DNA of 36,236 bases, from positions 1-36,236 of the IMG/VR virus record IMGVR_UViG_3300030060_005518; one strand, given 5' to 3'. Positions 2,473-36,233 of this stretch are shown here, piece by piece (the first letter of the stretch is position 1; every line of letters starts with the position of its first letter). The stretch comes from a virus. The position numbers were made by a program, and so were the translations under genes. Under the pieces are notes generated by a model, which worked only from the letters and a program-made list of their open reading frames with translations, was not told where the DNA came from and searched no databases.

Positions 2473-3465
2473 ATGGCAAATTTAATTACACACTCATTAA
2501 ATTATTCCAAAGAAGATGCTCAGAAATATTTCATGCAACCTTTATTTGTAGGAAACTCAGCATTAGATTACTTTGAAATAATGACAGGAGTAAAATCAAG
2601 TCAAAAACTTGACAAATTCTCAACTTTGCAAAAAATTACTAAAGCAAATGTAACAGGATTCGCAGGAGCAACAGGTGTTTCATACACTCAAAGAAGTATT
2701 ACAGTTGCTAGAATGGAAGCTGAAGTTGCTCAAGCAGGTGGTGCTTTTTGGAATTCTATAAAAGGAGAATTATTGAGAACAGGAAACAACAAAGATGATA
2801 TTTCAGGAACTAAATTACAGAAAATAGTTGCTGACATAATGATGCGTGGAGTTATGCGTGATCTAGAAAGACAATTATGGTTTTCAGATACAGCTTCAGC
2901 ATCAGCAGATTACAATGTTTATGATGGTATATTGAAACAATTAACTTCATTACCTGCTGCTCAGAGATTAGGTTGTTTATCTGTATTAACTACAGACACA
3001 GCAAGAGACAAATTCCAAGCAATGATTGATGCTATGCCATCAGAGGGAATGGAAGACAGAAGTCAATTAGTTATAATGGCTTCAAGAAGTTTATGTGATA
3101 ACTACCGAGCAACATTAAGATCAGGTGGACAGGAACTTGCTTACCTATCAATGACAGATGGAACTCCACAATTATCATACCAAGGAATTCCAATTGTAGA
3201 AATGGGATTATGGGATTCAGTTATTGGAGCAGATGCTGCTTCTACAGCTCCTGCACCACAAAATACAGCAAATGATCTTGATGGACATTTAGCAGTTTTA
3301 ACTGTTAAGAACAATATTGTTGTTGGAACTGATTATGATTCAGTTTCAGGTGCTGATATGTGGTATAATAGAGATGAAAAAGAAAACAGATTCAGATTGG
3401 AGTATGTTGTTGGAACAAACTACAAAAATGATGAATTGACAGTAACTTGTGATAGTAACTCATAA
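2473..3465 (+). CDS. Major capsid protein
   Basis: 330 aa, directly downstream of the prohead protease, which is the standard place for the HK97-fold capsid gene. Supporting segments are an N-terminal arm, a helix with TKLQKIVADIMMRGVMRDLERQLWF (about 113-136, typical of the spine-helix region), and a C-terminal part with ELAYLSMTDGTPQLSYQGIPIVEM, like capsid A-domain strands. The call rests on position, length and general character, not on a clear signature. It follows the protease by 34 nt of A-rich spacer. Confidence 0.78.
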   Translation: MANLITHSLNYSKEDAQKYFMQPLFVGNSALDYFEIMTGVKSSQKLDKFSTLQKITKANVTGFAGATGVSYTQRSITVARMEAEVAQAGGAFWNSIKGELLRTGNNKDDISGTKLQKIVADIMMRGVMRDLERQLWFSDTASASADYNVYDGILKQLTSLPAAQRLGCLSVLTTDTARDKFQAMIDAMPSEGMEDRSQLVIMASRSLCDNYRATLRSGGQELAYLSMTDGTPQLSYQGIPIVEMGLWDSVIGADAASTAPAPQNTANDLDGHLAVLTVKNNIVVGTDYDSVSGADMWYNRDEKENRFRLEYVVGTNYKNDELTVTCDSNS

Positions 3466-3502
3466 GAAATAAATTAGTAATTAACCTTTAAAAAATTAAA
3501 AA

Positions 3503-4105
3503 ATGGGAGTATTAACATCAGGACATATCATTCTTTGCGAGGACAGAAATCGTAGAGGTGGTATCAAAAACATTTGGTTGGGAGAGGTTGCTAATGTGAT
3601 TTCAACTACTACATCAACTCCTCATGGGTATTCATCAATTGATGGATTCTCAGGTGCAGCAGGAGCAGGTGCAGACATATATAATATGTGGAAGTTTGAG
3701 TTTGACAGAGAAACAGCTTACTTTACAGCCAACGCAACAAGAGAAAATGGATCTACAGTTGTAGAAACAGAAGTAGGTTTCAACATTCCAAAAATAACGC
3801 CAACAGTTCAAGCGAGATTAGAGGAATTAAAAGAAACTTGTGGTTTGTTTGCTATAGTAGAAACATTCGCAGATAACGGAGCAGCAACTCCTGTAACTTA
3901 CAAATTTGTTGTAGGTTATGATGAAGTATTTTCTCCTGATGCTTTCCTAGAGTTTTCTAGTGGAGAGCAGAATTCAGGAACAGGATTACAAGATCCAAAT
4001 GAAACTGTAGTAAAATTAAAAGGTTTCATGGGAGAATATCCAAGAGAATACTCAGGAACATTAGCAGTTGAAGATGCTGCAACAAATAAATATACAGCTT
4101 CATAA
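3503..4105 (+). CDS. Probable major tail (tube) protein
   Basis: 200 aa, beta-rich, with no Cys clusters. The core FTANATRENGSTVVETEVGF ... LKETCGLFAIVETFADNG ... FLEFSSGEQNSGTGLQDP resembles tail-tube proteins of Bacteroidetes siphophages: a strand pair, a helix, then a variable loop ending in a Gly-rich 'sG...G...d.n' stretch. It shares a transcription unit with the capsid gene and is followed at once by a terminator, so both are probably made in large amounts. A capsid decoration protein is the main alternative. Confidence 0.55.
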   Translation: MGVLTSGHIILCEDRNRRGGIKNIWLGEVANVISTTTSTPHGYSSIDGFSGAAGAGADIYNMWKFEFDRETAYFTANATRENGSTVVETEVGFNIPKITPTVQARLEELKETCGLFAIVETFADNGAATPVTYKFVVGYDEVFSPDAFLEFSSGEQNSGTGLQDPNETVVKLKGFMGEYPREYSGTLAVEDAATNKYTAS

Positions 4106-4126
4106 AAGTATAATTATTAAACAATC

Positions 4127-4170
4127 AAAAAGGGTTGGGGAAGTGCATACTAACTCAGCCCTTTTTTTTT
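4127..4170 (+). terminator. Rho-independent terminator after the capsid/tail-tube pair
   Basis: AAAAGGGTTG (4128-4137) pairs with CAGCCCTTTT (4156-4165): 10 bp with one G-U, followed by an unbroken T run to 4170. The next gene begins only 6 nt later and has no promoter of its own that I can see. Confidence 0.88.
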
Positions 4171-4175
4171 AAATT

Positions 4176-4409
4176 ATGGGTTGTAATTGTGGAAATAAAA
4201 AAATTAATCGTAATATTGTAAAAACATTAAATAAAATGGCAAAAACAAAATACAAAGTTAAAAAAGGAGTTTCGGATCATACAACATTGGTTTTGAGATC
4301 AGAAAAATTTTTAGTAAAAGATTTGACTCAACAGGTAATGAAAGTATTATACAAAGCAGGTAATCCAAACATTGAAATAGATTCAAATGCCAAAGAAAAA
4401 ACTAAATAA
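4176..4409 (+). CDS. Small protein with N-terminal CxC, upstream of portal
   Basis: 77 aa beginning MGCNCGNKK. The Cys3/Cys5 pair next to Gly residues suggests metal binding or a redox pair. The rest is basic and mixed alpha/beta (KYKVKKGVSDHTTLVLR ...). I do not recognise a named family. The gene begins 6 nt after the terminator and overlaps the portal gene by 23 nt, so its product is probably translated with portal and may act in head assembly. Confidence 0.7.
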   Translation: MGCNCGNKKINRNIVKTLNKMAKTKYKVKKGVSDHTTLVLRSEKFLVKDLTQQVMKVLYKAGNPNIEIDSNAKEKTK

Positions 4410-5742
4410 AGCAAAAGGTGTATTAGCATTTGATGTTTTAAATTTAGTAACTCAAAGAGAGGTTAGGGAGCAAAAAGATTTAACTAAATTAACTAAAGAT
4501 TATATTCCATTTGGGGAAGCTGAAGAAAATGATTTTCCTCAACATTTAGCAGAGTTAAAAAGAAAATCGGCAACTCATAGAGCAATTTTAGCTCAAAAAA
4601 CAATCTTTACAACAGGAGTTGGGTTTAATACAGAAGATGAATCTGTTTTAGCATATTTTGAAAATGCAAATGCTCATGGAGAAAACTTCATGTCAATATG
4701 GAGAAAGGTAATTGATGATTATTATACATTCGGAAACGCATATTATGAAGTAGTTCATTATGATGGTGGTGTAAACATTTATCATATTGATGCTACCAAA
4801 GTCCGAATATCAAAAGATCAAGAAAATGTAATCATTCATGCAGATTGGGATGAATATGAACAAAGAAAAGATGAAGCTGAAGTCATTCCATTTTATCCAA
4901 ACTTCATAAAAGACAAAGGAAACAAAAGAAGTGTCATTCACATTAAAGATTATGAGCCCGAGTTTGAATATTATGGTTTGCCTTGCTACATATCAGCATT
5001 AGAAGATATATCTGTAAATTATGAAATCGGAAGATGGAACAATACTAAATTTAAAAATCACTTTCAACCGAGTTCAATTGTTGAAATTAATGGAGATATG
5101 TCAGATGAAGAAGCAGAAGCATTAGTTGAAGAAGCAAGAAACAAATTTACAGGAGAGGGTAACAATGGCAAAATTCTTTTTTTAGTAAAGAATGGAGACA
5201 CATCTCCTGCACAAGTAACAACATTGTCAGACAATTCAGAAGGAAATTTTTTACAATTAGCAAACATAACAAATCAAAATATTATAACAGCACATCAGTG
5301 GCAACCTAGTTTATCAGGATTGGTTTCAGCAGGAAAAATGAATTCAACAGGATCAGAAATTAGAATTGCATATGAGATGGTTATGGCTACAGTTGTAAAA
5401 GGAACAATGCATTTGTTATTTGAGCCGATCAAACAAGTTTTACATGACTCAGGTTATGAAGTTGAAGATTTGGAAGTTAAATATGAGCCACCAATTTCAT
5501 TTATGTCAGATATTAAAATTGATGATGTTCTAGAAATTAATGAATTGAGAGAGGTGTTGGGTTATGAAGCAAAAGAGGGTTATGATAAACTACCAAATTT
5601 AACTCAAACATTGTGGCAACATCAACTTGAACAAGAAGCAGCAGAGCAAGAGCTTGAAGATGAAAAAGAATTGATGGAAGAAGAAGCTGAAATTGAAGAA
5701 GAATTAATTGAGAAAGAGCAAGAGCAAGAAAATGAAGATTAA
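4387..5742 (+). CDS. Portal protein
   Basis: 451 aa, a usual portal size. It has the pattern of PBSX/HK97-type portals: N-terminal HLAELKRKSATHRAILAQKT with FTTGVGF, then WRKVIDDYYTFGNAYYEVV (about 105-123), VNIYHIDATKVRI (wing), VIHIKDYEPEFEYYGLPCYI, and LSGLVSAGKMNSTGSEIRIAYEMV (about 309-332), the stem and tunnel-loop region that often carries GlnGly/SerAla motifs. The last 45 residues are strongly acidic (EEEAEIEEELIEKEQEQENED). It forms the dodecameric DNA channel at the head vertex. Unusually, it lies well downstream of the capsid gene and far from terminase. Confidence 0.88.
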   Translation: MPKKKLNKAKGVLAFDVLNLVTQREVREQKDLTKLTKDYIPFGEAEENDFPQHLAELKRKSATHRAILAQKTIFTTGVGFNTEDESVLAYFENANAHGENFMSIWRKVIDDYYTFGNAYYEVVHYDGGVNIYHIDATKVRISKDQENVIIHADWDEYEQRKDEAEVIPFYPNFIKDKGNKRSVIHIKDYEPEFEYYGLPCYISALEDISVNYEIGRWNNTKFKNHFQPSSIVEINGDMSDEEAEALVEEARNKFTGEGNNGKILFLVKNGDTSPAQVTTLSDNSEGNFLQLANITNQNIITAHQWQPSLSGLVSAGKMNSTGSEIRIAYEMVMATVVKGTMHLLFEPIKQVLHDSGYEVEDLEVKYEPPISFMSDIKIDDVLEINELREVLGYEAKEGYDKLPNLTQTLWQHQLEQEAAEQELEDEKELMEEEAEIEEELIEKEQEQENED

Positions 5743-17078: not shown

Positions 17079-17115
17079 AGGCATTCGCAAGATGTAAGTC
17101 CTTTTCTTTTTTTTT
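17079..17115 (+). terminator. Weak terminator-like hairpin after the LPD29 gene
   Basis: AGGCAT (17079-17084) and ATG...CCT (17092-17102) can pair over 6 bp with a TAAGT bulge, followed by TTTTCTTTTTTTTT. The T-rich run is clear but the stem is imperfect. Confidence 0.4.
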
Positions 17116-18137: not shown

Positions 18138-18385
18138 GCTTAGATAAAAAAACAATTGATGATTTCTTTAATCAAATTGATAAACATTACAAAGCACCTG
18201 AGTTATCATATACAGATGTAATAGCTATAATGATAAAAGATAAATTAAAATCTGAAAAGAATTTAAAAGTAGGATCAGTTCAATGGGATCTACACTCAGA
18301 AAAAGGATATTATTTATCAAGCAATAAAACAATCAATGTAGAATATTCAGGAAAAGAATATGAAATAATTATAAAGGAAAAATAA
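18134..18385 (+). CDS. Hypothetical protein, 83 aa
   Basis: 83 aa: an N-terminal helix (KKTIDDFFNQIDKHYKAPEL) and a C-terminal beta part (GYYLSSNKTINVEYSGKEYE). No known family. It is the last gene before the terminator that closes the early region. Confidence 0.62.
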   Translation: MSLDKKTIDDFFNQIDKHYKAPELSYTDVIAIMIKDKLKSEKNLKVGSVQWDLHSEKGYYLSSNKTINVEYSGKEYEIIIKEK

Positions 18386-18504: not shown

Positions 18505-18512
18505 TACATTTG
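18505..18512 (+). promoter_or_regulatory. -7 promoter box of the 7-deazaguanine operon
   Basis: TACATTTG matches TAnnTTTG exactly, 12 nt before the queD ATG and just after the terminator. The -33 region falls in the terminator's T tract and has no clear TTG, so this promoter may be weak or need an activator. Confidence 0.55.
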
Positions 18513-18524
18513 GAAAAAAAATTA

Positions 18525-18926
18525 ATGAAGATTTTAAAAACATATCACTTTTACGCAGGACATAGAAACAAAGAAGCAGGAGAAAAGTGTGGAAGATTAC
18601 ATGGACATACATATGATGTCAAATGCACATACAAATTTGATAATCTAGACAATGGAATTACAATGTTGTTTTCAGATATTGATTTAATTACTGAGCCAAT
18701 CATAAAACAATATGATCATTATTTTCTTTTGTTTGATCAAGATCCTTTATGTGAGTTGTTTGATCTAGCCAATGAGCCATACAAGAAAATGCCATTTGAA
18801 ACTTCAGCAGAAAACATGGCAATTTGGATCTTTAATGAGATCAGACAGAAACTTCCAATTGTTAAAATAGAATTAGCAGAAACAAAATCATCATCAGTTA
18901 TTTATGAAAAACCATTTAAGGATTAG
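18525..18926 (+). CDS. queD: 6-carboxy-tetrahydropterin synthase (QueD)
   Basis: 133 aa from ATG 18525; the TTG at 18510 belongs to the promoter box. It has the full QueD/PTPS active site: His13 in YAGH, catalytic Cys22 in CGRLHGH with zinc ligands His26 and His28, D64-H65 in YDHYFLL, and ETSAENMAIWIF (the PTAEN block). QueD converts dihydroneopterin triphosphate, the FolE product, into 6-carboxy-5,6,7,8-tetrahydropterin. It is the first gene of the operon and overlaps queE by 23 nt. The modified base made downstream is inserted into DNA by DpdA. Confidence 0.92.
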   Translation: MKILKTYHFYAGHRNKEAGEKCGRLHGHTYDVKCTYKFDNLDNGITMLFSDIDLITEPIIKQYDHYFLLFDQDPLCELFDLANEPYKKMPFETSAENMAIWIFNEIRQKLPIVKIELAETKSSSVIYEKPFKD

Positions 18927-19614
18927 CGAACATTTTTATTCGTTACAAGGAGAGGGAAAGACAATGGGAATTCCATCTGTTTTTTTAAGATTGCAAGCAT
19001 GTAATTTGTTATGTGATAATAAATGGAGATGTGATACAATTGAAGTTTGGATCAAAGGAGAAAAACATACAATTGAAGAAACATTAGATTTGTTTGAAAA
19101 GAAATATGAAAGAAAATTATTTAAAGGATCACATTTAGTAATAACAGGTGGAGAGCCATTGATTCAACAAGATATGATCATTGAATTTTTAAAACAATAT
19201 TATGAGAGATTTTTTTATATTCCATACATAGAAATTGAAACAAATGGAACTATAAATCCAAAAGATGAATTAATAAAGTTAGTCAATTTATTTAATGTTT
19301 CTCCAAAATTAAGTAACGCAGGAATGACAGAAAAAAGGAGAATCAAAGCTGAAGCTATTCATAAATTTAATTTAATTGAAAACAGTATATTTAAATTTGT
19401 AATTGGAGACAATGAAGATTGGAAAGAATTAAATGATACATATTTAAAACCATTCAAGATACGAAAAGAAAAAATTCATTTAATGCCATCTGCTGATGAT
19501 TCTGAGATGTTAAAAAAACATTCTCAATATGTAGCTGAATTATGTAAAAAAAATGTTTTCAATTACAGCAGTAGATTACAAATTGAATTATGGAATAAAA
19601 CCACAGGAGTATGA
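18904..19614 (+). CDS. queE: 7-carboxy-7-deazaguanine synthase (QueE)
   Basis: 236 aa. This radical-SAM enzyme turns 6-carboxytetrahydropterin into CDG. Motifs are SLQGEG (13-18), cluster cysteines Cys33, Cys37 and Cys43 followed by DTIEVW, and GGEP (82-85). The third cysteine is five residues after the second (CX3CX5C), in place of the standard CX3CX2C; QueE proteins with longer inserts before CDTIEVW are known. ETNGTINP and SPKLSNAG are also typical. It overlaps queD at its start and a membrane microprotein at its stop (ATGA). Confidence 0.92.
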   Translation: MKNHLRISEHFYSLQGEGKTMGIPSVFLRLQACNLLCDNKWRCDTIEVWIKGEKHTIEETLDLFEKKYERKLFKGSHLVITGGEPLIQQDMIIEFLKQYYERFFYIPYIEIETNGTINPKDELIKLVNLFNVSPKLSNAGMTEKRRIKAEAIHKFNLIENSIFKFVIGDNEDWKELNDTYLKPFKIRKEKIHLMPSADDSEMLKKHSQYVAELCKKNVFNYSSRLQIELWNKTTGV

Positions 19615-19736
19615 TTGAATTTTTAAAACACTTTTTCGGATTTTGTGGAGAGCCACATTTGAATTTTTGGCATATTTTATGCACTCCTGTTGGTGGTTAT
19701 TTATATTACAAAATAAAAAAGAATAAAAATGGATAA
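19611..19736 (+). CDS. Membrane-associated microprotein, 41 aa
   Basis: The ATG overlaps the queE stop (ATGA). It begins MIEFLKHFFGFCGEPHLNF, then has a short hydrophobic run with Pro-Gly-Gly (HILCTPVGGYLYY), and ends in a basic KIKKNKNG. The hydrophobic segment is short for a full membrane span. No family is recognised. The exact overlaps at both ends support a real cistron. Confidence 0.5.
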   Translation: MIEFLKHFFGFCGEPHLNFWHILCTPVGGYLYYKIKKNKNG

Positions 19737-19803
19737 ATATCAAAAAAGATTATTTGTTTTATATATGCTAATAATAATAATAATGTTAGTGATTGGTTTA
19801 TGA
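19729..19803 (+). CDS. 24-residue single-span membrane microprotein
   Basis: The frame starts MDKYQKRLFVLYMLI and continues as an almost pure Ile/Met/Leu/Val helix to GL-stop. It overlaps the previous ORF by 8 nt and the folE start as ATGA. It is plausible as a coupled membrane peptide, but it could also be only a coupling device for folE. Confidence 0.45.
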   Translation: MDKYQKRLFVLYMLIIIIMLVIGL

Positions 19804-20627
19804 AAATAAAAAAAGTAACTTGGCAAGAAATTTATGAAAGGTTAGCACAATTACCAAAAGGAAAATGTTATGGTATTCCTAGAGGTGGACAGGTTGTAGC
19901 AGGATTAACAATGAACGCAGTTGAAACTCCTGAAGAAGCAGATTTTTTAGTTGATGATCTTATTGATTCAGGTAGAACAGCAATGAAATGGAAAGAAAAA
20001 TACCCTGACAAACCTCTTTGTGTTTTATTTAATAAACAAGAGGAAAGTAATTTAGGTTGGTTGGAGTTTCCTTGGGAAGAAAGTGGACAGAGAGATGCTG
20101 AAGATTCTGTGGCTAGATTATTGGAAGCATTTGGAGAGGACATAAACAGAGAGGGATTGAAAGAAACACCAAAAAGATATGTTAAATTCTTTAAAGAGTT
20201 TTTAAATCCACCAAAATGGAATTGCACAACATTTGAATCAGAAGGTTATGATGAAATTATATTCCAAAACAATATTCCTTTTCATTCTTTATGTGAACAT
20301 CATATTGCTCCATTCTTTGGACATGGAATGATTGCTTACATACCTGATCAGAGAATTGTTGGATTGTCTAAATTAGCAAGGACTTTGGAAACATTTTCAA
20401 GGAGATTACAGAATCAAGAAAGAATAACAATGCAAGTTGCTGATTTTTTAGAGAAAGAATTAAAACCAAAAGCTGTGGCTGTAATTTTAAAAGCAAAACA
20501 TATGTGTATGGAGATGCGTGGAGTTAAAAAACATGATACTTGGACAACAACTTCAGTAATGAGAGGGATCTTTAAAGAAGATCACAAAGCTAGATTGGAA
20601 GTTATGAACTTATATAATCAAAAATGA
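19800..20627 (+). CDS. folE: Phosphoribosyltransferase-GTP cyclohydrolase I fusion (FolE)
   Basis: 275 aa, two domains. Residues about 1-95 resemble a type I phosphoribosyltransferase of the xanthine-guanine (Gpt) kind: VTWQEIYERL at the N-terminus, PRGGQVVAG (27-35), the PRPP loop VDDLIDSGRTA (51-61), and GWLEFPWEE (86-94), close to the end of E. coli Gpt. Residues about 97-275 are GTP cyclohydrolase I: zinc ligands Cys165, His168 and Cys236, CEHHIAPFFGHGMIAYIP (165-182) and HMCMEMRGV (234-242). FolE makes dihydroneopterin triphosphate for QueD. The fused domain could supply GTP from guanine. Both active sites look intact. ATGA overlaps bound the gene on both sides. Confidence 0.88.
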   Translation: MKIKKVTWQEIYERLAQLPKGKCYGIPRGGQVVAGLTMNAVETPEEADFLVDDLIDSGRTAMKWKEKYPDKPLCVLFNKQEESNLGWLEFPWEESGQRDAEDSVARLLEAFGEDINREGLKETPKRYVKFFKEFLNPPKWNCTTFESEGYDEIIFQNNIPFHSLCEHHIAPFFGHGMIAYIPDQRIVGLSKLARTLETFSRRLQNQERITMQVADFLEKELKPKAVAVILKAKHMCMEMRGVKKHDTWTTTSVMRGIFKEDHKARLEVMNLYNQK

Positions 20628-21016
20628 TTTCAGCTCATTTAGGATTGTTCGCAAATTTATTCGCAATGAAAAAATTAATAATATTACATTTTGAAATTGA
20701 AGGACATCATGCTTGGAAAGACGCACCTGAAAACATTTGGTTTCTGTCAAAAGAGCATAGGCATTTGTTTACAATAAGAATTGGAATGAATGTTGAGCAT
20801 AATGACAGAGAGAAAGAAATATTTTTACAACAACAATTATTTCAAGAATATTTAAAAACAAAATATGAAAAAACTCATTTGAATGATTATACATACCACG
20901 ATTTTGGAAACATGAGTTGCGAAGACATAGCTGAAGAAATAATAAAACTTGATGATTCAATTCATTGGGTTGAAGTTTTAGAAGATAACAAAGGTGGTGC
21001 AAGAATTGAAAGATAA
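20624..21016 (+). CDS. QueD-like T-fold protein without catalytic Cys (DpdL candidate)
   Basis: 130 aa from ATG 20624 (ATGA overlap with folE). The domain itself begins at Met15 (20666, MKKLIILHFEIEGHHAW), an alternative start. It follows the QueD plan: a first zinc His in EGHH, an H-R-H pair in SKEHRHLF (cf. LHGH), SCEDIAEEI (cf. PTAENLA) and VEVLEDNKGGARIE. The Cys that lies four residues before the HGH motif in QueD is Leu here, so standard QueD chemistry is unlikely. A QueD-like protein called DpdL was proposed as a CDG decarboxylase in phages (from memory). Because QueC is missing, that activity would fit well. Confidence 0.62.
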   Translation: MISAHLGLFANLFAMKKLIILHFEIEGHHAWKDAPENIWFLSKEHRHLFTIRIGMNVEHNDREKEIFLQQQLFQEYLKTKYEKTHLNDYTYHDFGNMSCEDIAEEIIKLDDSIHWVEVLEDNKGGARIER

Positions 21017-21019
21017 ATT

Positions 21020-21937
21020 ATGAAACTATTTTTAGCAGGAGTCAATGATCAAAATAAATTACAAGCTGTTTACAGAGCAAACCACCCTTACATTTTGAGT
21101 AGTTATTGGGAACACCAAAGAGGATTTCACAAAGAATGGTTACATTGGTATAAAAAAACAAGAGACAAAGGAGCTGATTTTATTATGGATTCAGGTTTGT
21201 TCACTATGATGTTTGGAGCAGGAAGCGATAAAACATATTCAGAAAAAGAATTATTAGATTACACTAATAAATATTTGAAAGATATAAAAGCAATCGGTTA
21301 TAATAATTACATTGTTGAAATGGATGTCCACAAAGTTTTAGGATTACAATCTTTAAAAAGATTCAGAAAGATTTTTGAAAAGGAATATCCATTAGAAAAA
21401 ACAATATTTGTTTGGCATGTTGAAGAAAAAGAATTAGGATTCAAAAAACTTTGTGAGAAATACCCTTACATAGCAATTTCAATTCCTGAATTGAGAATAA
21501 TTTTTAAAGGTAATAGAAAAAGTTTGAGAAACGCAATTAAAAATTTAATAAAGATTGCGAATGATATTAATCCAAACATTAAAATTCATTTGCTTGGTTG
21601 TACTCAAATTAGTTTAATGGAACAAAAAGGTTATTATTCATGTGATTCAACATCATGGCAATCAAGTCAGATGTTCGGAACTTGTTACTATTTTGATAAT
21701 AAGTTAAAGAGAGTCAAAGAAACTACAGATTTTTGGAAACAATATGCTTTGAGAATGGAAGATAAAATTTGGAGATACTCAGACAAAACAAAAGAAGAAA
21801 AATTCAAAAAATTAACAGCTCAAAACTATTGGAGAAACGCATCACTTTGTGCAATGGCATTTTCAAAATTGAATCAACATATAAACAACAGATATTATAA
21901 CTTTGAACAAATCAAAAAATTAAATTATGAAAGTTAA
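21020..21937 (+). CDS. dpdA: DpdA-like DNA guanine transglycosylase
   Basis: 305 aa. It belongs to the TGT-like superfamily: FIMDSGLFTMMFGAG (54-68, like DSGGFQ), NYIVEMDVHKVLG (96-108) with candidate catalytic Glu100/Asp102, VWHVEE (131-136), IHLLGCTQ (189-196) and YYSCDSTSWQ (205-214). This matches phage DpdA, which swaps guanine in DNA for a 7-deazaguanine base; it lacks the C-terminal zinc motif of tRNA TGT that I could find. It follows the CDG-pathway genes and overlaps the ParB-like gene by 11 nt. It protects phage DNA from restriction, by analogy with known DpdA phages. Confidence 0.85.
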   Translation: MKLFLAGVNDQNKLQAVYRANHPYILSSYWEHQRGFHKEWLHWYKKTRDKGADFIMDSGLFTMMFGAGSDKTYSEKELLDYTNKYLKDIKAIGYNNYIVEMDVHKVLGLQSLKRFRKIFEKEYPLEKTIFVWHVEEKELGFKKLCEKYPYIAISIPELRIIFKGNRKSLRNAIKNLIKIANDINPNIKIHLLGCTQISLMEQKGYYSCDSTSWQSSQMFGTCYYFDNKLKRVKETTDFWKQYALRMEDKIWRYSDKTKEEKFKKLTAQNYWRNASLCAMAFSKLNQHINNRYYNFEQIKKLNYES

Positions 21938-23173: not shown

Positions 23174-23519
23174 AGACAGATTTACACCTGAAAAGATTGC
23201 TGATGCTTTAAGAAAAAACGCAGGATTGATTTCATTAACAGCTACAGCTTTAAATTGTACTAGAAAAACAATTTACAATTACATTGAAAAGTTTCCTGAA
23301 CTTCAAGAGGTATTAGAAGACATCAGAGAATCAATGGATGATATAGCAGAAGCAGCATTATTAAAAAACATCAAAGAGGGAAGTACGCAAGAAATATTAT
23401 ATTATCACAAAAGAAGATTGGGACACCGAGGATATGGAGATAATAAACAGATTGACATAACTTCAAACAATGAGCCGATTAAAATTAACATTGATCTAGG
23501 AGATGGAGATAACTCCTAA
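23163..23519 (+). CDS. terS: Terminase small subunit
   Basis: 118 aa. The N-terminal helix-turn-helix, KIADALRKNAGLISLTATAL (about 11-30) with NCTRKTIYNYIEKFPE, is the DNA-recognition module of small terminase subunits. ILYYHKRRLGHRGYG (about 79-93) resembles their oligomerisation tail. It overlaps the large subunit gene by 17 nt. It should select the packaging site and regulate the ATPase. Confidence 0.85.
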   Translation: MANKDRFTPEKIADALRKNAGLISLTATALNCTRKTIYNYIEKFPELQEVLEDIRESMDDIAEAALLKNIKEGSTQEILYYHKRRLGHRGYGDNKQIDITSNNEPIKINIDLGDGDNS

Positions 23520-24813
23520 CTTTACAGAAACTCAAAAGAAAGCATTAAAATATTTGTATGATGTAAAAACAAATGAAATTCTTTTCGGTGGTGGAGCAGG
23601 TGGTGGTAAATCATTTTGTGGCTGTGCATTTTTAATTTTAAGTTGTATCAAGTTTCCAAAAACTAGATATTTAATGGGAAGAAGCAAATTGGATTCTTTA
23701 AAGAAAACAACATTGAACACTTTCTTTGAAGTATGTGAGTTATGGAATATCAAATCAGGAAATCATTTTACATTCAATGCTTCTTCAAACATCATTAAAT
23801 TTTACAATGGAAGTGAAATTCTTTTAAAAGATTTATTCTCATATCCATCTGATCCAAACTTTGATTCTTTAGGATCATTAGAATTGACAGGAGCTTTTAT
23901 AGATGAAGCAAATCAAATATCACAAAAAGCAAAGATGATTGTTTTTTCTAGAATCAGATACAAACTAGATGATTATGGAATTGTTCCAAAGCTGTTATTG
24001 ACTTGTAATCCTGCAAAGAATTGGCTTTATTCAGAATGGTATTTACCTTATAAACAAAACATCTTATCTGAAGACAAACAGTTTCTTCAATCATTAGCTA
24101 TTGACAATCCAAACATCAGTAAACACTATGTTGAATCATTAAAGAAATTAGACAAAATATCAAGAGAGAGATTACTTTATGGCAATTGGGCATATGAAGA
24201 TACTGAGGGGAAGCTGTTTAAATATGATAAAATAGTTGATTGCTTTACAAATAACTTTATTAAAGGTGGAAAAGAAAAGTTTTTGTCAGTTGATGTAGCA
24301 AGATTCGGAAAAGATTCATCTGTTATTATTGTTTGGGATCATTATGTTATTGAAAAGATATATCAACATTCAAAAACATCAATTACAGAATTAGCAGAGA
24401 TAGTCAATAGAATCTCAAATGAAAACAGAGTTCCAAGAAGCAATATTGTTATTGATGAAGATGGAGTCGGTGGTGGTTTGAAAGACATGATCAGAGGATC
24501 AAAAGGTTTTGTCAATGGTAGCAAAGCACTAGGAAAAGAAAATTATTCTAATTTAAGAAGTCAATGCTATTACAAGTTTGCAGAGAAAGTAAATCAATCA
24601 TCAGTTTACATAAAAGATTCAACTTATAAAGATTCAATTGTTCAAGAGTTGGAAGTGATAGCCATGAAAGATATTGACAAAGATAATAAATTAGCAATCA
24701 TAGGAAAAGACAAAATAAAAGAGAATATCGGAAGATCTCCTGATATTGCAGATGCTATGATGATGAGGATGTATTTTGAATTGAATAAAACAAAGATTAC
24801 ATATTATGGCTGA
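23503..24813 (+). CDS. terL: Terminase large subunit
   Basis: 436 aa. ATPase: Walker A GGGAGGGKS (29-37), Walker B with D134/E135 in GAFIDEAN, coupling motif TCNP (167-170), and GNW (227-229). RNase H-like nuclease: Asp264 in SVDVARFGKDSS, IDEDGVGGG (317-325), and D414/D417 in SPDIADAMMM. It packages DNA into the portal-headed capsid and cuts the concatemer. The portal gene is 16 kb away on the circle, not adjacent as usual. Confidence 0.95.
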   Translation: MEITPNFTETQKKALKYLYDVKTNEILFGGGAGGGKSFCGCAFLILSCIKFPKTRYLMGRSKLDSLKKTTLNTFFEVCELWNIKSGNHFTFNASSNIIKFYNGSEILLKDLFSYPSDPNFDSLGSLELTGAFIDEANQISQKAKMIVFSRIRYKLDDYGIVPKLLLTCNPAKNWLYSEWYLPYKQNILSEDKQFLQSLAIDNPNISKHYVESLKKLDKISRERLLYGNWAYEDTEGKLFKYDKIVDCFTNNFIKGGKEKFLSVDVARFGKDSSVIIVWDHYVIEKIYQHSKTSITELAEIVNRISNENRVPRSNIVIDEDGVGGGLKDMIRGSKGFVNGSKALGKENYSNLRSQCYYKFAEKVNQSSVYIKDSTYKDSIVQELEVIAMKDIDKDNKLAIIGKDKIKENIGRSPDIADAMMMRMYFELNKTKITYYG

Positions 24814-24865: not shown

Positions 24866-25630
24866 ATGATAATAGTTAAAGTTGGAGATAAAAAAGTTAA
24901 AATTCCTGAGAGTTATTCAGAGATTACAATTAAAGAGTTTACTCAGATTTGGAAAATACTTCATAAATATGAAACAATTCCATTAGCAGAGGGAGAGGAA
25001 TACAATGATACACAAAAATTGAAAATGGAAAACAATGAGAGAGATGTTACATTCATGTTAGTTTCTCATTTATTGGGATTGACTAAAGAAGAAACAAAAC
25101 AAGTTGATTTTTTGGCAGCACAGGAAATTGTAAATGTATTCAATAACTTCATTAACAATCAACCGATAAACAAGATAATAAAAAAAACAGGAAACAATCA
25201 TTTTGTTTTTAAAGGAGAAGCATATTATTATCCAAAACCTGATTTTAAAGACATGACTTTTGGAGAGTATTGTGAACTTCAACAATTACAATCAACTTTT
25301 GGAAAAGAAACAAAAAACAGATTTGATTTTATAGCAAAACAAATTGCTTTGAGCTGTAGAAGAAAAGGAGAGGAAAAAGATTCATATGATCTAGATGAAA
25401 GGACAAAGATGTTTGAAGATTTAACAATGGATTATGTTTTAGCATACAGTTTTTTTTTGAGCAATCGGGTAAAAATCTTGGGGAAAAATATCCAAACCTC
25501 TTTAAAGAATCAACAAACAGATTCCACAGAAAAACAAGACACATCATTGAAGGATATGGTTGGCTCAATACCATTTATGAACTTGCAAGAGAGGGAGTTT
25601 TTTCAAAAGGAACAAAATACAATGCAATAG
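24866..25630 (+). CDS. Tail assembly chaperone, zero-frame form
   Basis: 254 aa in the unshifted frame. The start (MIIVKVGDKKVKIPESYSEI, then TIKEFTQIWKIL) resembles the opening of tail assembly chaperones of siphophages. LVSHLLGLTKEETKQVDFLA and FNNFINNQP follow. At residue 197 the frame meets a T9 run. The residues after it (SNRVKILGKNIQTSLKNQQT ...) look less protein-like than the overlapping -1 frame. The gene is the first tail gene after terminase. The usual place for this gene is next to the tape measure; here two large tail genes lie between. Function is inferred. Confidence 0.62.
   Translation: MIIVKVGDKKVKIPESYSEITIKEFTQIWKILHKYETIPLAEGEEYNDTQKLKMENNERDVTFMLVSHLLGLTKEETKQVDFLAAQEIVNVFNNFINNQPINKIIKKTGNNHFVFKGEAYYYPKPDFKDMTFGEYCELQQLQSTFGKETKNRFDFIAKQIALSCRRKGEEKDSYDLDERTKMFEDLTMDYVLAYSFFLSNRVKILGKNIQTSLKNQQTDSTEKQDTSLKDMVGSIPFMNLQEREFFQKEQNTMQ
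25450..25458 (+). promoter_or_regulatory. T9 slippery sequence for -1 ribosomal frameshift
   Basis: Nine T with zero-frame codons AGT TTT TTT TTG contain a perfect T-TTT-TTT heptamer. A -1 slip moves ribosomes into a frame that stays open for 101 codons. I see no convincing downstream pseudoknot. Confidence 0.65.
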
Positions 25631-25761
25631 AATGTGTAGAAAAAGAAGATTTATTGATAGTATTTACATATTTGAGTTGGAAGAAAGCTCAATCAGATTA
25701 TGAAGTAGCAAATCAAAAACTGAGAGACAAAGAACATAAACAAAACATGAGAAAAAATTAA
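25456..25761 (+). CDS. -1 frame extension of the tail assembly chaperone
   Basis: Read after a -1 slip at the T9 run, this frame runs 101 codons to TAA at 25759-25761, 3 nt before the next ATG. It contains GYGWLNTIYELAREGVFSKG and LLIVFTYLSWKKAQSDYEVA, clearly protein-like. The frame has no start codon of its own (its only ATG is four codons from the end), so it needs frameshifting. The fusion would be 298 aa (197 + 101), like the G-GT products of lambda. The overlap of the two frames is about 170 nt. A missing T in the assembly would give one continuous gene; then the zero-frame tail would be an artefact. Confidence 0.7.
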   Translation, partial: FEQSGKNLGEKYPNLFKESTNRFHRKTRHIIEGYGWLNTIYELAREGVFSKGTKYNAIECVEKEDLLIVFTYLSWKKAQSDYEVANQKLRDKEHKQNMRKN

Positions 25762-25764
25762 AAC

Positions 25765-26277
25765 ATGGCAGTAATAAAAGACATAGAAGAACTTTCAACT
25801 GATATAAAAACAGCAGCAACACCTTATTGGGACACCTACAGATTTGGTTATTTAGGAGAGGTAAATAATTATCACAACAATGATTATCCTTTAATGTTAT
25901 TGTTACCACCTAGAAGTTCATTTGATGATCCTTACAAAAATGATGAGGAATTTATTTTAGAGTTTCATTTATACAAACCAAGTGAGGAATTATTAAGTGA
26001 AACAACAGGAAATTTACAGCTAGGACAAAATCAAACAGTAATGTTGGAAAGAACATTTGATGATTTGCTTTCAAGATTTAAAGAAACAATGGAAGATTTG
26101 TATCAAAATTATGAACACAAATACATAAACGCAGGTGGTTGGGAGATTGAAAGATTGTCTCAACAACATGCTGACAGATTAGTTTCATTAGTTGTAACAA
26201 TAAGATTGAGAAAATTCTCATTCTGTTTACAAACATCTGAAAATACAGATGTGGTAGTTGGTGGTGGTGGAGATTAA
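25765..26277 (+). CDS. Putative tail completion/terminator-like protein
   Basis: 170 aa. It is mixed alpha/beta: YWDTYRFGYLGEVNNYHNND, YPLMLLLPPRSS, FILEFHLYKPSEE, LERTFDDLLSRFKETMEDLY, RLVSLVVTIRLRKFSF, then a Gly-rich end. Length and strand-helix order fit the gpU-like tail terminator family, and it lies just before the neck protein gene. No motif is decisive. Confidence 0.5.
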   Translation: MAVIKDIEELSTDIKTAATPYWDTYRFGYLGEVNNYHNNDYPLMLLLPPRSSFDDPYKNDEEFILEFHLYKPSEELLSETTGNLQLGQNQTVMLERTFDDLLSRFKETMEDLYQNYEHKYINAGGWEIERLSQQHADRLVSLVVTIRLRKFSFCLQTSENTDVVVGGGGD

Positions 26278-26289
26278 TAAAATAATTAA

Positions 26290-26778
26290 ATGATTAAACT
26301 TGACAAAACAGATTTAGACAAAATTGGATTAGCAGTTACAACAGCTTTTGGAGTTGAGTTGGCTAGTCAAGGCAGAGGAAAGAAACAAGGATCTTTGATA
26401 AACTCATTAAAAGCAGTTCCTCAATCTCCTGATACTGTCCAAATCTTCGCAAACTACTATTGGAGATTTGTTGATCAGGGAGTTTCTTCAGCTAGTATTA
26501 AGAAACCATTTGCACCACCAAGAATTGATGGATTGATTCGTTGGCTAACATCAAAAGGAATCGGAAGCTCAGATAAAAAAATCAGAAGCATAGCATACGC
26601 AATTGCTAGAACTCATGGAAAAAAAGGAATGCCGACAATGAACAGCAGGAGAGATTCAAAAAGATTAAACTTTGTAGATAAAGCATTTAAAAAACATAAT
26701 GCAAAAATAAATAAAGTAATAGATAACATTTTAGAAAGTAAAATTGATTTTGCTTTTTTAAAAATAAAAAACGCATAA
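26290..26778 (+). CDS. Head-tail neck protein, HK97 gp10-like
   Basis: 162 aa. The pattern QIFANYYWRFVDQGVSS (about 51-67), KPFAPPRIDGLIRWLTSKGI and IRSIAYAIARTHGKKGMP is that of HK97 gp10-type (DUF-like) connectors, which have 'Y..fvd.G...', 'l..wv..kG' and 'ayaIar.i..kG'. It should seal the head-tail joint. It is followed 3 nt later by a large tail gene. Confidence 0.72.
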   Translation: MIKLDKTDLDKIGLAVTTAFGVELASQGRGKKQGSLINSLKAVPQSPDTVQIFANYYWRFVDQGVSSASIKKPFAPPRIDGLIRWLTSKGIGSSDKKIRSIAYAIARTHGKKGMPTMNSRRDSKRLNFVDKAFKKHNAKINKVIDNILESKIDFAFLKIKNA

Positions 26779-32435: not shown

Positions 32436-35400
32436 ATGGCAGATTTAAAGAAAGTAATTGACATAAAAATAGTTGGAACTGATCAAATTGTTCAGTTGGA
32501 ACAAGCAATAACTCAAGCTGAGCAGAAGTTGAAAAACATGACAAAAGCTAGTAAGGATAACGCAGGAATGCAAAAGATTCATGTTAAAAATATTGCTAAA
32601 ACAAAAACAGAATTAAAAATGCTCAGAGCTGAAAGAAACGCAGAGCAAAAAAATCTGATAGCTAACACCAACGCAGCAAAACAATTAGATGGAAGTTACA
32701 ATTCACTTGTTCAAAGAAATAAAGATTTATTGACTAAAATGAAAGCCACAAAAGGTGGTATGAGTTCAAATACAAAGGAGATGAAAGCCATGAAAAAGGA
32801 GTATTTGGCTAATAATATTGAATTAAAAAAGTTTGATAAAACCATAGGAAACAATCAAAGAAATGTTGGAAATTATGGAGGAGTATTAGGAGGAGCGAGA
32901 GAAAAATTAGCAGCAGTTGGAATGGCAGTTGGAGCAGCAGTTGTTGCTTTCCAAGCTATGTCAAAAATTGTCGGAACAGCAACACAGGATTTTGCTCAGT
33001 TTGAATCAGGATTTACAAATGTATTAACACTAATGTCAGGAGATGATATTAATAGATTTGGAGATTCAATGCAAGCAGGAGCAATTGATGTAATGAAAGA
33101 GTTTGGATTACAAGCTGATGATATGAATACAGCTTTATTTGATATTGTATCAGCAGGAATTCCTGCAGGAGAGTCAATTGACTTTATGAGAGAAGCAGCA
33201 AATTTAGCTTTGGGTGGTGCTACAGATTTATCAACTGCTGTTGATGGAATGACATCTGTAATGAACGCATTTAGTTTAGAAACTGATGAAGCAGCACAGG
33301 TTTCTTCAGCATTTTTCTCAGCTCAAAAATTTGGTAAAACTACAGTATCGGAATTGTCTTCAGCAATTGGAGCAATAGCACCAATAGCAAATCAAGCAGG
33401 AGTTTCATATCAAGAACTTTTAACTTCAATGTCTTTATTAACTAAAGGTGGTATAAAAACAGATGAAGCAACAACAGCATTAAAAGCTACAATGACAGCT
33501 TTAATGAAGCCAAGCGAATCAGCCAAAAAGAAGTTTGATGAACTTGGAATCTCATATGGAACAAATGCGTTACAATCTGAGGGACTAATGAACATTCTTG
33601 GACAGGTATCAGCAGCAGCAGAAGAAAATGCTGATGTATTAACAGAGTTGATTCCAAATGTCCGAGCTTTAACAGGAGTTGGATCATTAGGAACTGAGCA
33701 ATTAGCAGAGTATGCCGAAATGTTAAAAGTTGTGAATAGTGATTATGGAGAAAATTCATCTTTAGCTGAAGCTGTTAAAATGCAACAAGAAACTTTACAA
33801 CAAAGATTGAATGTTGTAAATGCAGAATGGAGTGCTCAGAAAATAGCTTTAGGCGAACAATTGAAACCTATCTTGATGGCTGTCCTAGATATTTTTTCTA
33901 GTATGATTCAAAACTCACATCAAATAGTGGCTGTGGTAAAAGGAATGACAGCAGGATTGGTAGCATATGGAGCTGTGGTTGCTGCTCAAAATGTAAAACA
34001 AAAATTATTTAATTCAGCTATAAAAGCAGCATCAGCAGCAAAATTTCTTTACACAAAAGGATTATCAGCAGCAATTGTAAAAGTAAAAGCATTGAACGCA
34101 GCATCAAAAGCGAATGTATTTTTATTAATAGCTTCAGCAATAATAGCTATTGGAACAGCAATGGCAAGTTGGATCAAACAAATGTCAGCAGCAGAAAAAG
34201 CTCAAGCATCAATTGGCGAAGCTACAAAACAAGCGAATAAAGAAACTCAACAAGAAATCAAATCTGTAAATGAAGCATTAAAAGTAGCTCAGGACAAAAC
34301 AAAATCTGACAAAGAAAGGCAAGAAGCAGTTGATTTGTTAAATAAAGAAGTAGATGGATTCAATGGTACTTTGACACTTGAAACAGCAACCACGCAAGAA
34401 GCAATCAATGTTGTTGAGGAACATACAAAAGCCATATTCAATAACGCAAAAGCAAAAGCATTACAAACAAAAGCTGATGAATTAGCATTAGCTATTTTAG
34501 ATGAGGAAATAAAAGCTACAGATGAAGTTGTTGGATTAAATAATAAAATGGCAGCAGGTATTAAAGCAGCATTTTCAACTAAAACTTATGATCAAATATT
34601 AGATGAAAAAGGTAATAAAAAGAAAGCTGAAAACATTGTTGCATTACAAAAAGAGCAAGATATTTTAGAGGAACATATTAAAACACTAACAACAACAAAC
34701 AAGAAAAAAGATGAAGTAATAAAGAAAGAAGAAAAAACAAATGAAGTCAGAAAAGGAACATTAGCTTCATTACGAAAAGAAGTTTCTGATTTAAAGAAAG
34801 CTCAGGACAATGCAATAGTCGGATCAACAGAGTTTGAAAAAATAACTATTCAATTAAATGATGCAAAGAAAAAACTAAAAGATACAACTGACAGTTTAAA
34901 AGATTCAACCAAAAAAGAATTAACAGGATTTGCTTTGTTAAAAGATAATGTTGCGAAAGCGAAAAAAGCATTAGAAGATAAAATAATAGCAGGTGGTAAC
35001 GCACAAAAAGAAATGGATGCTTTGTCAGCAGCAAATGACAAACTGAAACAGAAAGAAGATGAATTAAAATTAGCTGTAGCAGGTGGAGTTACTGAAAATG
35101 ATAAAAAAATTGCTTCATTAAAAGAAGCTATTACTCAAACAGAAAACCAAACAAAGTTATTACAAGATTTGGGAGCAACTGAAGATGAAATTCATGCTAG
35201 TAAAATTGATCAGATAAATGCTGAAATAGCATTAGAGATTGAAAAGATGAATCAAAGTCAAGATTATTATGATACAGGAGTTGAAAATATAACTAAACTT
35301 AGGGATCAGATGGTAACTCTAGAGGAAGATGCTGCTGCAAATGATTGGGATGGAAAAATGTTTGGACCGAAAGTAATCAAAGCTATTAAAACAACAATGG

Positions 35401-36233
35401 CAGGAATGGATGCTGCTTTAGGAATCATGAATGAGATGTCAAACTTGGCTGATGTAAAAGCTCAAAATGTTATTAATGGATTAAACAAAGAAAGAGATGA
35501 AGAAATAAAAAAGTTTGAGGAATCAGCAGAGTTCCAAACAATGACAGAGGAAGAAAAAGCAGCAAGAATGGATGAAATCAATTTAGATTATGATGAAAAA
35601 GTAAAAGCAATAGAGTTAGAACAATTTGAAAGAGGAAAGAGAATGGCTATAGCTCAAGCATTAATTCAGGGAGCAATGGCTATCATGAGAATTGCTGCTG
35701 AAGTTCCAAAAGTAGATTTTGGAGTTACAACAGGAATTTTGATAGGTGCTCAGATTGTAATGACAGGATTACAAGTTGCTGCTATTCGTGCTCAGGAATT
35801 CGCAGGAGCTTTAGGTGGAACAATTCCATTGTTAGGAAAAGCTCAAATGGCAGGAGACATAGCAAGAAAATATGCTAATGGTGGTATGGTTTATGGACCG
35901 CCACATTCTCAGGGTGGTGTAAGGTTTAATGTTGGTGGTAGAGTCATGGAGTTAGAGGGTGGCGAAGCAGTAATAAATAAAAGATCAACAGCAATGTACC
36001 GAGATCAATTATCAGCTATCAATCAAGCAGGTGGTGGACAGAAATTTGCAAATGGTGGATTAGTTATGCAGAATCAAATAAGGAGAGATGCTAATGAACA
36101 AAGCCGAATATCTCCTGATGATTTGAGAATGGTAGCAGGTTTAGTAAATAATCAAAAGATAAATGTAACTGAAGCTCAAATAACAGGAACTCAACAAAGA
36201 GTAGCAGTACATGAAAAAAGAGCTAGGTACTAA
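32436..36233 (+). CDS. Tail tape measure protein (TP901 type)
   Basis: 1265 aa. The N-terminus is coiled coil. FAQFESGFTNVLTLM (about 186-200), ALFDIVSAGIPAGESIDFMR, KFGKTTVSELSSAIGAIAPI and GVSYQELLTSMSLLTKGGI are core TP901 tape-measure blocks. Hydrophobic segments near 565-590 and near 1070-1130 fit the DNA-injection role. A C-terminal FANGG/EGGEAV block (YANGGMVYGPPHSQGGVRF, EGGEAVINKRS) is typical of tape measures. By the common rule of about 0.15 nm per residue, a tail of roughly 190 nm is expected (inference). The end of the gene is also present at 1-96. Confidence 0.93.
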   Translation: MADLKKVIDIKIVGTDQIVQLEQAITQAEQKLKNMTKASKDNAGMQKIHVKNIAKTKTELKMLRAERNAEQKNLIANTNAAKQLDGSYNSLVQRNKDLLTKMKATKGGMSSNTKEMKAMKKEYLANNIELKKFDKTIGNNQRNVGNYGGVLGGAREKLAAVGMAVGAAVVAFQAMSKIVGTATQDFAQFESGFTNVLTLMSGDDINRFGDSMQAGAIDVMKEFGLQADDMNTALFDIVSAGIPAGESIDFMREAANLALGGATDLSTAVDGMTSVMNAFSLETDEAAQVSSAFFSAQKFGKTTVSELSSAIGAIAPIANQAGVSYQELLTSMSLLTKGGIKTDEATTALKATMTALMKPSESAKKKFDELGISYGTNALQSEGLMNILGQVSAAAEENADVLTELIPNVRALTGVGSLGTEQLAEYAEMLKVVNSDYGENSSLAEAVKMQQETLQQRLNVVNAEWSAQKIALGEQLKPILMAVLDIFSSMIQNSHQIVAVVKGMTAGLVAYGAVVAAQNVKQKLFNSAIKAASAAKFLYTKGLSAAIVKVKALNAASKANVFLLIASAIIAIGTAMASWIKQMSAAEKAQASIGEATKQANKETQQEIKSVNEALKVAQDKTKSDKERQEAVDLLNKEVDGFNGTLTLETATTQEAINVVEEHTKAIFNNAKAKALQTKADELALAILDEEIKATDEVVGLNNKMAAGIKAAFSTKTYDQILDEKGNKKKAENIVALQKEQDILEEHIKTLTTTNKKKDEVIKKEEKTNEVRKGTLASLRKEVSDLKKAQDNAIVGSTEFEKITIQLNDAKKKLKDTTDSLKDSTKKELTGFALLKDNVAKAKKALEDKIIAGGNAQKEMDALSAANDKLKQKEDELKLAVAGGVTENDKKIASLKEAITQTENQTKLLQDLGATEDEIHASKIDQINAEIALEIEKMNQSQDYYDTGVENITKLRDQMVTLEEDAAANDWDGKMFGPKVIKAIKTTMAGMDAALGIMNEMSNLADVKAQNVINGLNKERDEEIKKFEESAEFQTMTEEEKAARMDEINLDYDEKVKAIELEQFERGKRMAIAQALIQGAMAIMRIAAEVPKVDFGVTTGILIGAQIVMTGLQVAAIRAQEFAGALGGTIPLLGKAQMAGDIARKYANGGMVYGPPHSQGGVRFNVGGRVMELEGGEAVINKRSTAMYRDQLSAINQAGGGQKFANGGLVMQNQIRRDANEQSRISPDDLRMVAGLVNNQKINVTEAQITGTQQRVAVHEKRARY

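Follow-up and report, generated by a model that had tools for sequence, protein, structure and literature searches.

A probable G/GT-type tail assembly chaperone gene of a putative Bacteroidota phage: two products possibly set by RNA polymerase slippage on a run of nine T's

In phages lambda (gpG/gpGT) and HK97 (gp14), the tail assembly chaperone gene precedes the tape measure gene within the tail module, and its single start yields a short product and a longer one extended in the -1 frame. A stimulatory RNA structure or a Shine-Dalgarno element is usual, though not obligatory, in -1 programmed ribosomal frameshifting. The G/GT frame change is generally ribosomal, and some tailed phages carry it out without stimulators (PMC5009743). 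Slippage on nine A's or nine T's has been described in the open-access literature for Shigella mxiE, IS elements (PMC1088944, PMC3711429) and dnaX. Slippage-prone runs with lengths near nine are subject to length-dependent negative selection (PMC1088944, Baranov et al.), insertions rise exponentially with the length of the run, and the hybrid formed in the polymerase is 9 nt long (PMC5574713).

We analysed a 36,236-nt stretch of viral DNA (IMG/VR record IMGVR_UViG_3300030060_005518, hereafter the window), in which a gene on the plus strand shares with the lambda and HK97 genes both the two-form architecture and the location in the tail module. Its 0-frame ORF (24866..25630) encodes a short product of 254 aa, probably a G-like tail assembly chaperone, in which residues 1-196 are conserved and the final 58 are not. 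The frame-change site is a T9 run (25450..25458, plus strand), read in the 0-frame as AGT TTT TTT TTG AGC and containing the in-frame heptamer T_TTT_TTT (25450-25456). The -1 frame stays open between 25417 and 25761, and the part that follows the run (25459..25761, plus strand) encodes a T-like domain of 100 residues plus the stop codon; the ATG of the next gene stands 3 nt on, at 25765. The fused product would thus comprise 195 + 3 + 100 = 298 residues. The only start codons of the -1 frame (TTG 25654, TTG 25672 and ATG 25747) are situated deep within the conserved domain. The T count, the coordinates and the products of 254 and 298 residues given by an earlier sequence-only reading of this DNA were all correct on re-reading (T9 at 25450-25458, -1 stop ending at 25761), as was its statement that the -1 frame has no start codon of its own, the first possible one (TTG 25654) being far inside the conserved domain. 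The two other T9 runs of the window (4162-4170 and 17107-17115) are both intergenic; the former comes after GGGTTG...CAGCCC, an arrangement resembling a long-looped terminator.

Structure prediction gave a confident model of the N part (pLDDT 88, pTM 0.82) and a weaker one of the C part (pLDDT 79, pTM 0.59). When PDB matches of the N part were re-ranked with VIA-align, the HK97 tail assembly chaperone 2OB9 came out on top (Z 5.4, 78 residues, rmsd 3.1), and the rows below it were unrelated proteins with Z <=2.6; Foldseek of the N part against the PDB returned no match at E<=0.001. BFVD contains a 254-residue protein identical over the N-part model, the short ORF thus having already been deposited, as well as weaker matches that bear the name tail assembly chaperone. 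The C domain had no informative fold match in BFVD. Among profiles of chaperone families, those of PHROGs and NCBIfam gave no match, and Phage_TAC_7 was reached by 1 of 54 members (E 0.0065).

Directly upstream, in conserved synteny, lies the gene of the terminase large subunit (terL, 23503..24813, plus strand). It is followed, beyond the putative chaperone gene and on the same strand, by a 170-aa gene (25765..26277) and a 162-aa gene (26290..26778), both kept in this order in relatives. The tape measure gene, whose product is the presumed chaperone client, is located further downstream (32436..36233, plus strand; phrog_1533 5.2e-46, PF10145 3.2e-31), codirectional and separated from the chaperone gene by four genes. 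Within the stretches covered, the nearer relatives show the same succession: TerL, chaperone gene, 170 aa, 162 aa, 558 aa, 1324 aa, tape measure. Because the product has a predicted HK97 gp14-like fold, is encoded at a conserved place in the tail module and shares the architecture of G/GT, it is probably a G/GT-type tail assembly chaperone. The sequence-only reading had named it a tail chaperone, and that name is retained on these three grounds, which do not amount to proof by sequence, as no profile match was significant. The nearest named TerL relatives belong to phages of Flavobacterium and Cellulophaga, and therefore the host is probably a member of the Bacteroidota. The window also carries, at 18510-21937, a cluster of QueD-, QueE-, GTP cyclohydrolase- and queuine tRNA-ribosyltransferase-like genes, after which comes a ParB-like gene; the cluster possibly serves 7-deazaguanine modification of the phage DNA.

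Relatives were gathered through the neighbouring TerL, which yielded 80 IMG/VR loci. In nine TerL-linked relatives both parts occur soon after terL, all in the -1 relation at the same T run (N part 34-45% identical; about 32-53% identity by part). Searches with the N part alone (viral contigs, phage records) and with the C part (genomes) found none. A wider set was obtained by profile searches with both parts, using peptide patterns that do not touch the junction. It gave 113 IMG/VR loci for the branch of the window, and as some of these are overlapping pieces of one contig, the count to use is that of the 81 distinct sequences, which share descent and are all in the -1 relation. A continuous homologue in relatives, which the sequence-only reading had named as one observation that would speak against it, was looked for and occurred in 0/81 distinct sequences of this branch. 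The run comprises nine T's in 61 of them, ten in 18 and eleven in 2, and is never shorter than nine; the longer runs, T10 and T11, stem from altered codons just ahead of the run (GTT, ATT, TTT), with no effect on the frame relation.

A second branch (L012) includes at least 86 loci (at least 77 distinct sequences), with exactly T9 in the register 2+3+3+1; one of the two search patterns used for it spans FFL at the junction, yet permits TTC. The same register is present in the cultured Nonlabens phages P12024S and P12024L (CTT TTT TTT TAT at the junction). The register is 1+3+3+2 in the branch of the window and in L021 and L075, 0+3+3+3 in the L035 family, and either 2+3+3+1 or T10 in the L025 family, and the in-frame heptamer is present in every relative. 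When the DNA after terL was scanned for runs of at least 7 T's or A's between two suitably open frames, T>=9 was the only kind found. The prophage search of named genomes produced one match, to the second branch only, on a 36-kb contig of a Pseudooceanicola MAG. This contig (PAPR01000004.1, 36104 bases, binned as Pseudooceanicola) carries the second-branch gene with T9, and its size suggests a mis-binned whole phage.

The distribution of substitutions was examined in 72 pairs of close relatives; the pairs share ancestry and the figures are descriptive. Upstream of the run, 0-frame third positions account for 67% of the differences (3731/5604); past the point where the 0-frame tail ends, the same share (67%, 685/1028) lies on -1-frame third positions, a bias that bears out the protein-like character which the sequence-only reading had ascribed to the -1 frame. 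In the overlap region the 0-frame second position varies most (171/384), which indicates that the protein sequence of the 0-frame tail is not conserved. The C part is conserved from the T run onward. As the -1 relation is kept in every relative and the -1 frame is under coding constraint, a programmed -1 frame change, proposed from the single sequence, is now strongly supported by comparative sequence analysis.

To characterize the run itself, we surveyed 37 loci (359 ORFs, 281 kb), with expectations derived from codon-order shuffling. All 37 coding runs of T>=9 are at the frame junction and 0 elsewhere, where 9.4 would be expected. Shorter T runs and A runs are also below expectation: 4 T8 versus 16.7, 40 T7 versus 52, 7 A>=9 versus 52, and 35 A8 versus 67. 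In-frame T_TTT_TTT, on the other hand, occurs in 32 cases in other genes, outside the junction. In the branch of the window the ninth T is never replaced through the use of TTC, although TTC makes up 20% of Phe codons (P 0.002 for 27 clusters at 60% identity, if the clusters are independent). Folding of six loci downstream of the run and of one stretch upstream, together with two alignments, revealed no stable or covarying RNA structure, and a Shine-Dalgarno-like element at the usual spacing from the run was not conserved in alignments A7/A8. Of 14 start regions examined in the window, a clear Shine-Dalgarno-like AGGAG was seen in that of terL only. Shine-Dalgarno sequences are not recognised by Bacteroidia ribosomes (PMC9976891).

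These results bear on the step at which the frame is changed. Ribosomal -1 frameshifting at T_TTT_TTT (or T_TTT_TTG), as in lambda G/GT, would give the same two products; it is the usual route for G/GT genes, a stimulator is dispensable in some phages (PMC5009743), and all relatives have the heptamer in frame. Seven T's would suffice for it, yet at least nine are kept, in three registers, the ninth is never lost to TTC in the branch of the window, in-frame heptamers are tolerated in other genes, and there is neither a conserved structure nor, for most genes of the window, a Shine-Dalgarno site. The kept run length, the moving register, the tolerated heptamers and the missing stimulators together fit transcriptional slippage better than a ribosomal heptamer, and the mechanism given in the sequence-only reading, a T-TTT-TTT ribosomal heptamer, is consequently not established: what is kept is the length and not the heptamer. 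Several points nevertheless count against slippage of the polymerase. The in-frame heptamer is always there, the two extra flanking T's of the second branch may be kept by Val/Leu codons, and the avoidance of T8/T9 elsewhere may stem from replication slippage. On balance the sequence evidence favours transcriptional slippage, which we hold to be reasonably probable, over ribosomal frameshifting, a credible but less probable reading; both may act at once. The junction peptide (...AYSFFFEQSGK...) is identical for a -1 step of the ribosome on the heptamer and for one U added to the mRNA, so peptide evidence alone cannot separate the two.

Homopolymers are error-prone and the original finding came from one contig, which made an error of sequencing or assembly, or a pseudogene with a broken frame, worth considering; the relatives refute this, since many metagenomes supply the same junction, in 81 and at least 77 distinct sequences, two cultured phages have it as well, and the -1 frame is under coding constraint, leaving such a reading virtually no probability. 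Long homopolymers are likewise typical of phase-variable genes, in which replication slippage alters the run length in the DNA and would toggle the long form. This, too, is very improbable here, given that no locus has both parts in one frame and that T10 and T11 come from an altered preceding codon with the -1 relation kept. The two parts might instead be separate proteins, the second started by translational coupling or from an unusual start codon, as the annotation of two separate hypothetical genes in the Nonlabens records would suggest; Flavobacterium phage 6H, without a slip site between the fold-related gene and the following ORF, points the same way. However, the window and most relatives examined have no start codon ahead of the conserved part, the T run is invariant, and C-part conservation starts exactly at the run, all of which makes two independent products highly unlikely.

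We therefore consider it somewhat probable that the gene encodes a G/GT-type chaperone whose two forms arise by RNA polymerase slippage on T9, in a phage probably infecting Bacteroidota. Most transcripts would keep nine U's and specify the 254-residue short form. The T9 run equals the 9-bp RNA:DNA hybrid in length; slippage of the polymerase on it would add one U to a fraction of the mRNAs, and these would join the -1 frame and yield the 298-residue form, which carries the additional C-terminal domain. By analogy with lambda, the short form may bind the tape measure protein, and the presumably rarer long form may recruit the tail tube subunit.

G/GT frame changes are generally regarded as ribosomal. 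If RNA polymerase slips here, a group that numbers hundreds of metagenomic members would attain the same assembly ratio at a different stage of gene expression. That this large uncultured, largely metagenomic group sets its chaperone ratio by transcriptional slippage on T9, perhaps as Bacteroidota ribosomes ignore Shine-Dalgarno stimulators, seems to us slightly on the probable side. We found no phage tail chaperone using slippage in the open-access literature, which is weak evidence of novelty as most subscription papers were outside the search. Were the slippage reading right, a search for T9 could recover missed second halves of chaperone genes. Because run length and heptamer can be set against each other, the question lends itself to direct testing, for which the cultured Nonlabens phages offer a system.

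Other phages provide several points of comparison. In Flavobacterium phage 11b an A9 run at 18173-18181 (GAT AAA AAA AAA GTG) joins gene 38 to a -1 frame that leads into gene 39; this pair, two genes before the large gene 40, is likely an unannotated G/GT pair at A9, not T9. In Flavobacterium phage 6H (10044-10927, minus strand), gp10 has a fold matching that of the N part, and the gap after it is filled by an unannotated ORF of 105 codons. Phage 6H has no T9, and the overlap of its two frames is no more than about 10 nt; the second part must therefore be joined or started differently there. Cellulophaga phage phi10:1 was rejected as a parallel: an A8 run stands between two ORFs ahead of its tape measure gene, but the second of them has its own ATG and lies in the other frame. 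The closest cultured counterparts are the Nonlabens phages P12024S and P12024L (gp38-gp39 and gp40-gp41), which have the gene directly after terL, with T9 and a -1 continuation; in contrast to the window, the T run begins one base earlier relative to the codons, and the records give two hypothetical genes without a frame change. P12024L also encodes, in a row at 3359-5624, a 2OGFeDO-family oxygenase, a glucosyltransferase and a methyltransferase, likely DNA hypermodification genes.

The likeness to HK97 gp14 (2OB9) may extend to the fold predicted for the N part. The gene differs from its lambda and HK97 counterparts in that its frame-change site consists of nine or more T's and nothing else, and in that the protein has no significant sequence-level match to known chaperone families. 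Unlike in lambda, it stands directly after terL and four genes before the tape measure gene, not immediately upstream of it; this place next to the terminase, called unusual in the sequence-only reading, is so with respect to lambda but normal within its own phage group. With regard to Shigella mxiE and the IS elements (PMC1088944, PMC3711429), the present gene differs in acting, presumably, in structural assembly of a phage, and we infer its slippage from sequence. It resembles them in its two overlapping ORFs and its run of nine T's and, on the slippage reading, would do so in the one added nucleotide and the dependence of the longer product on the slip.
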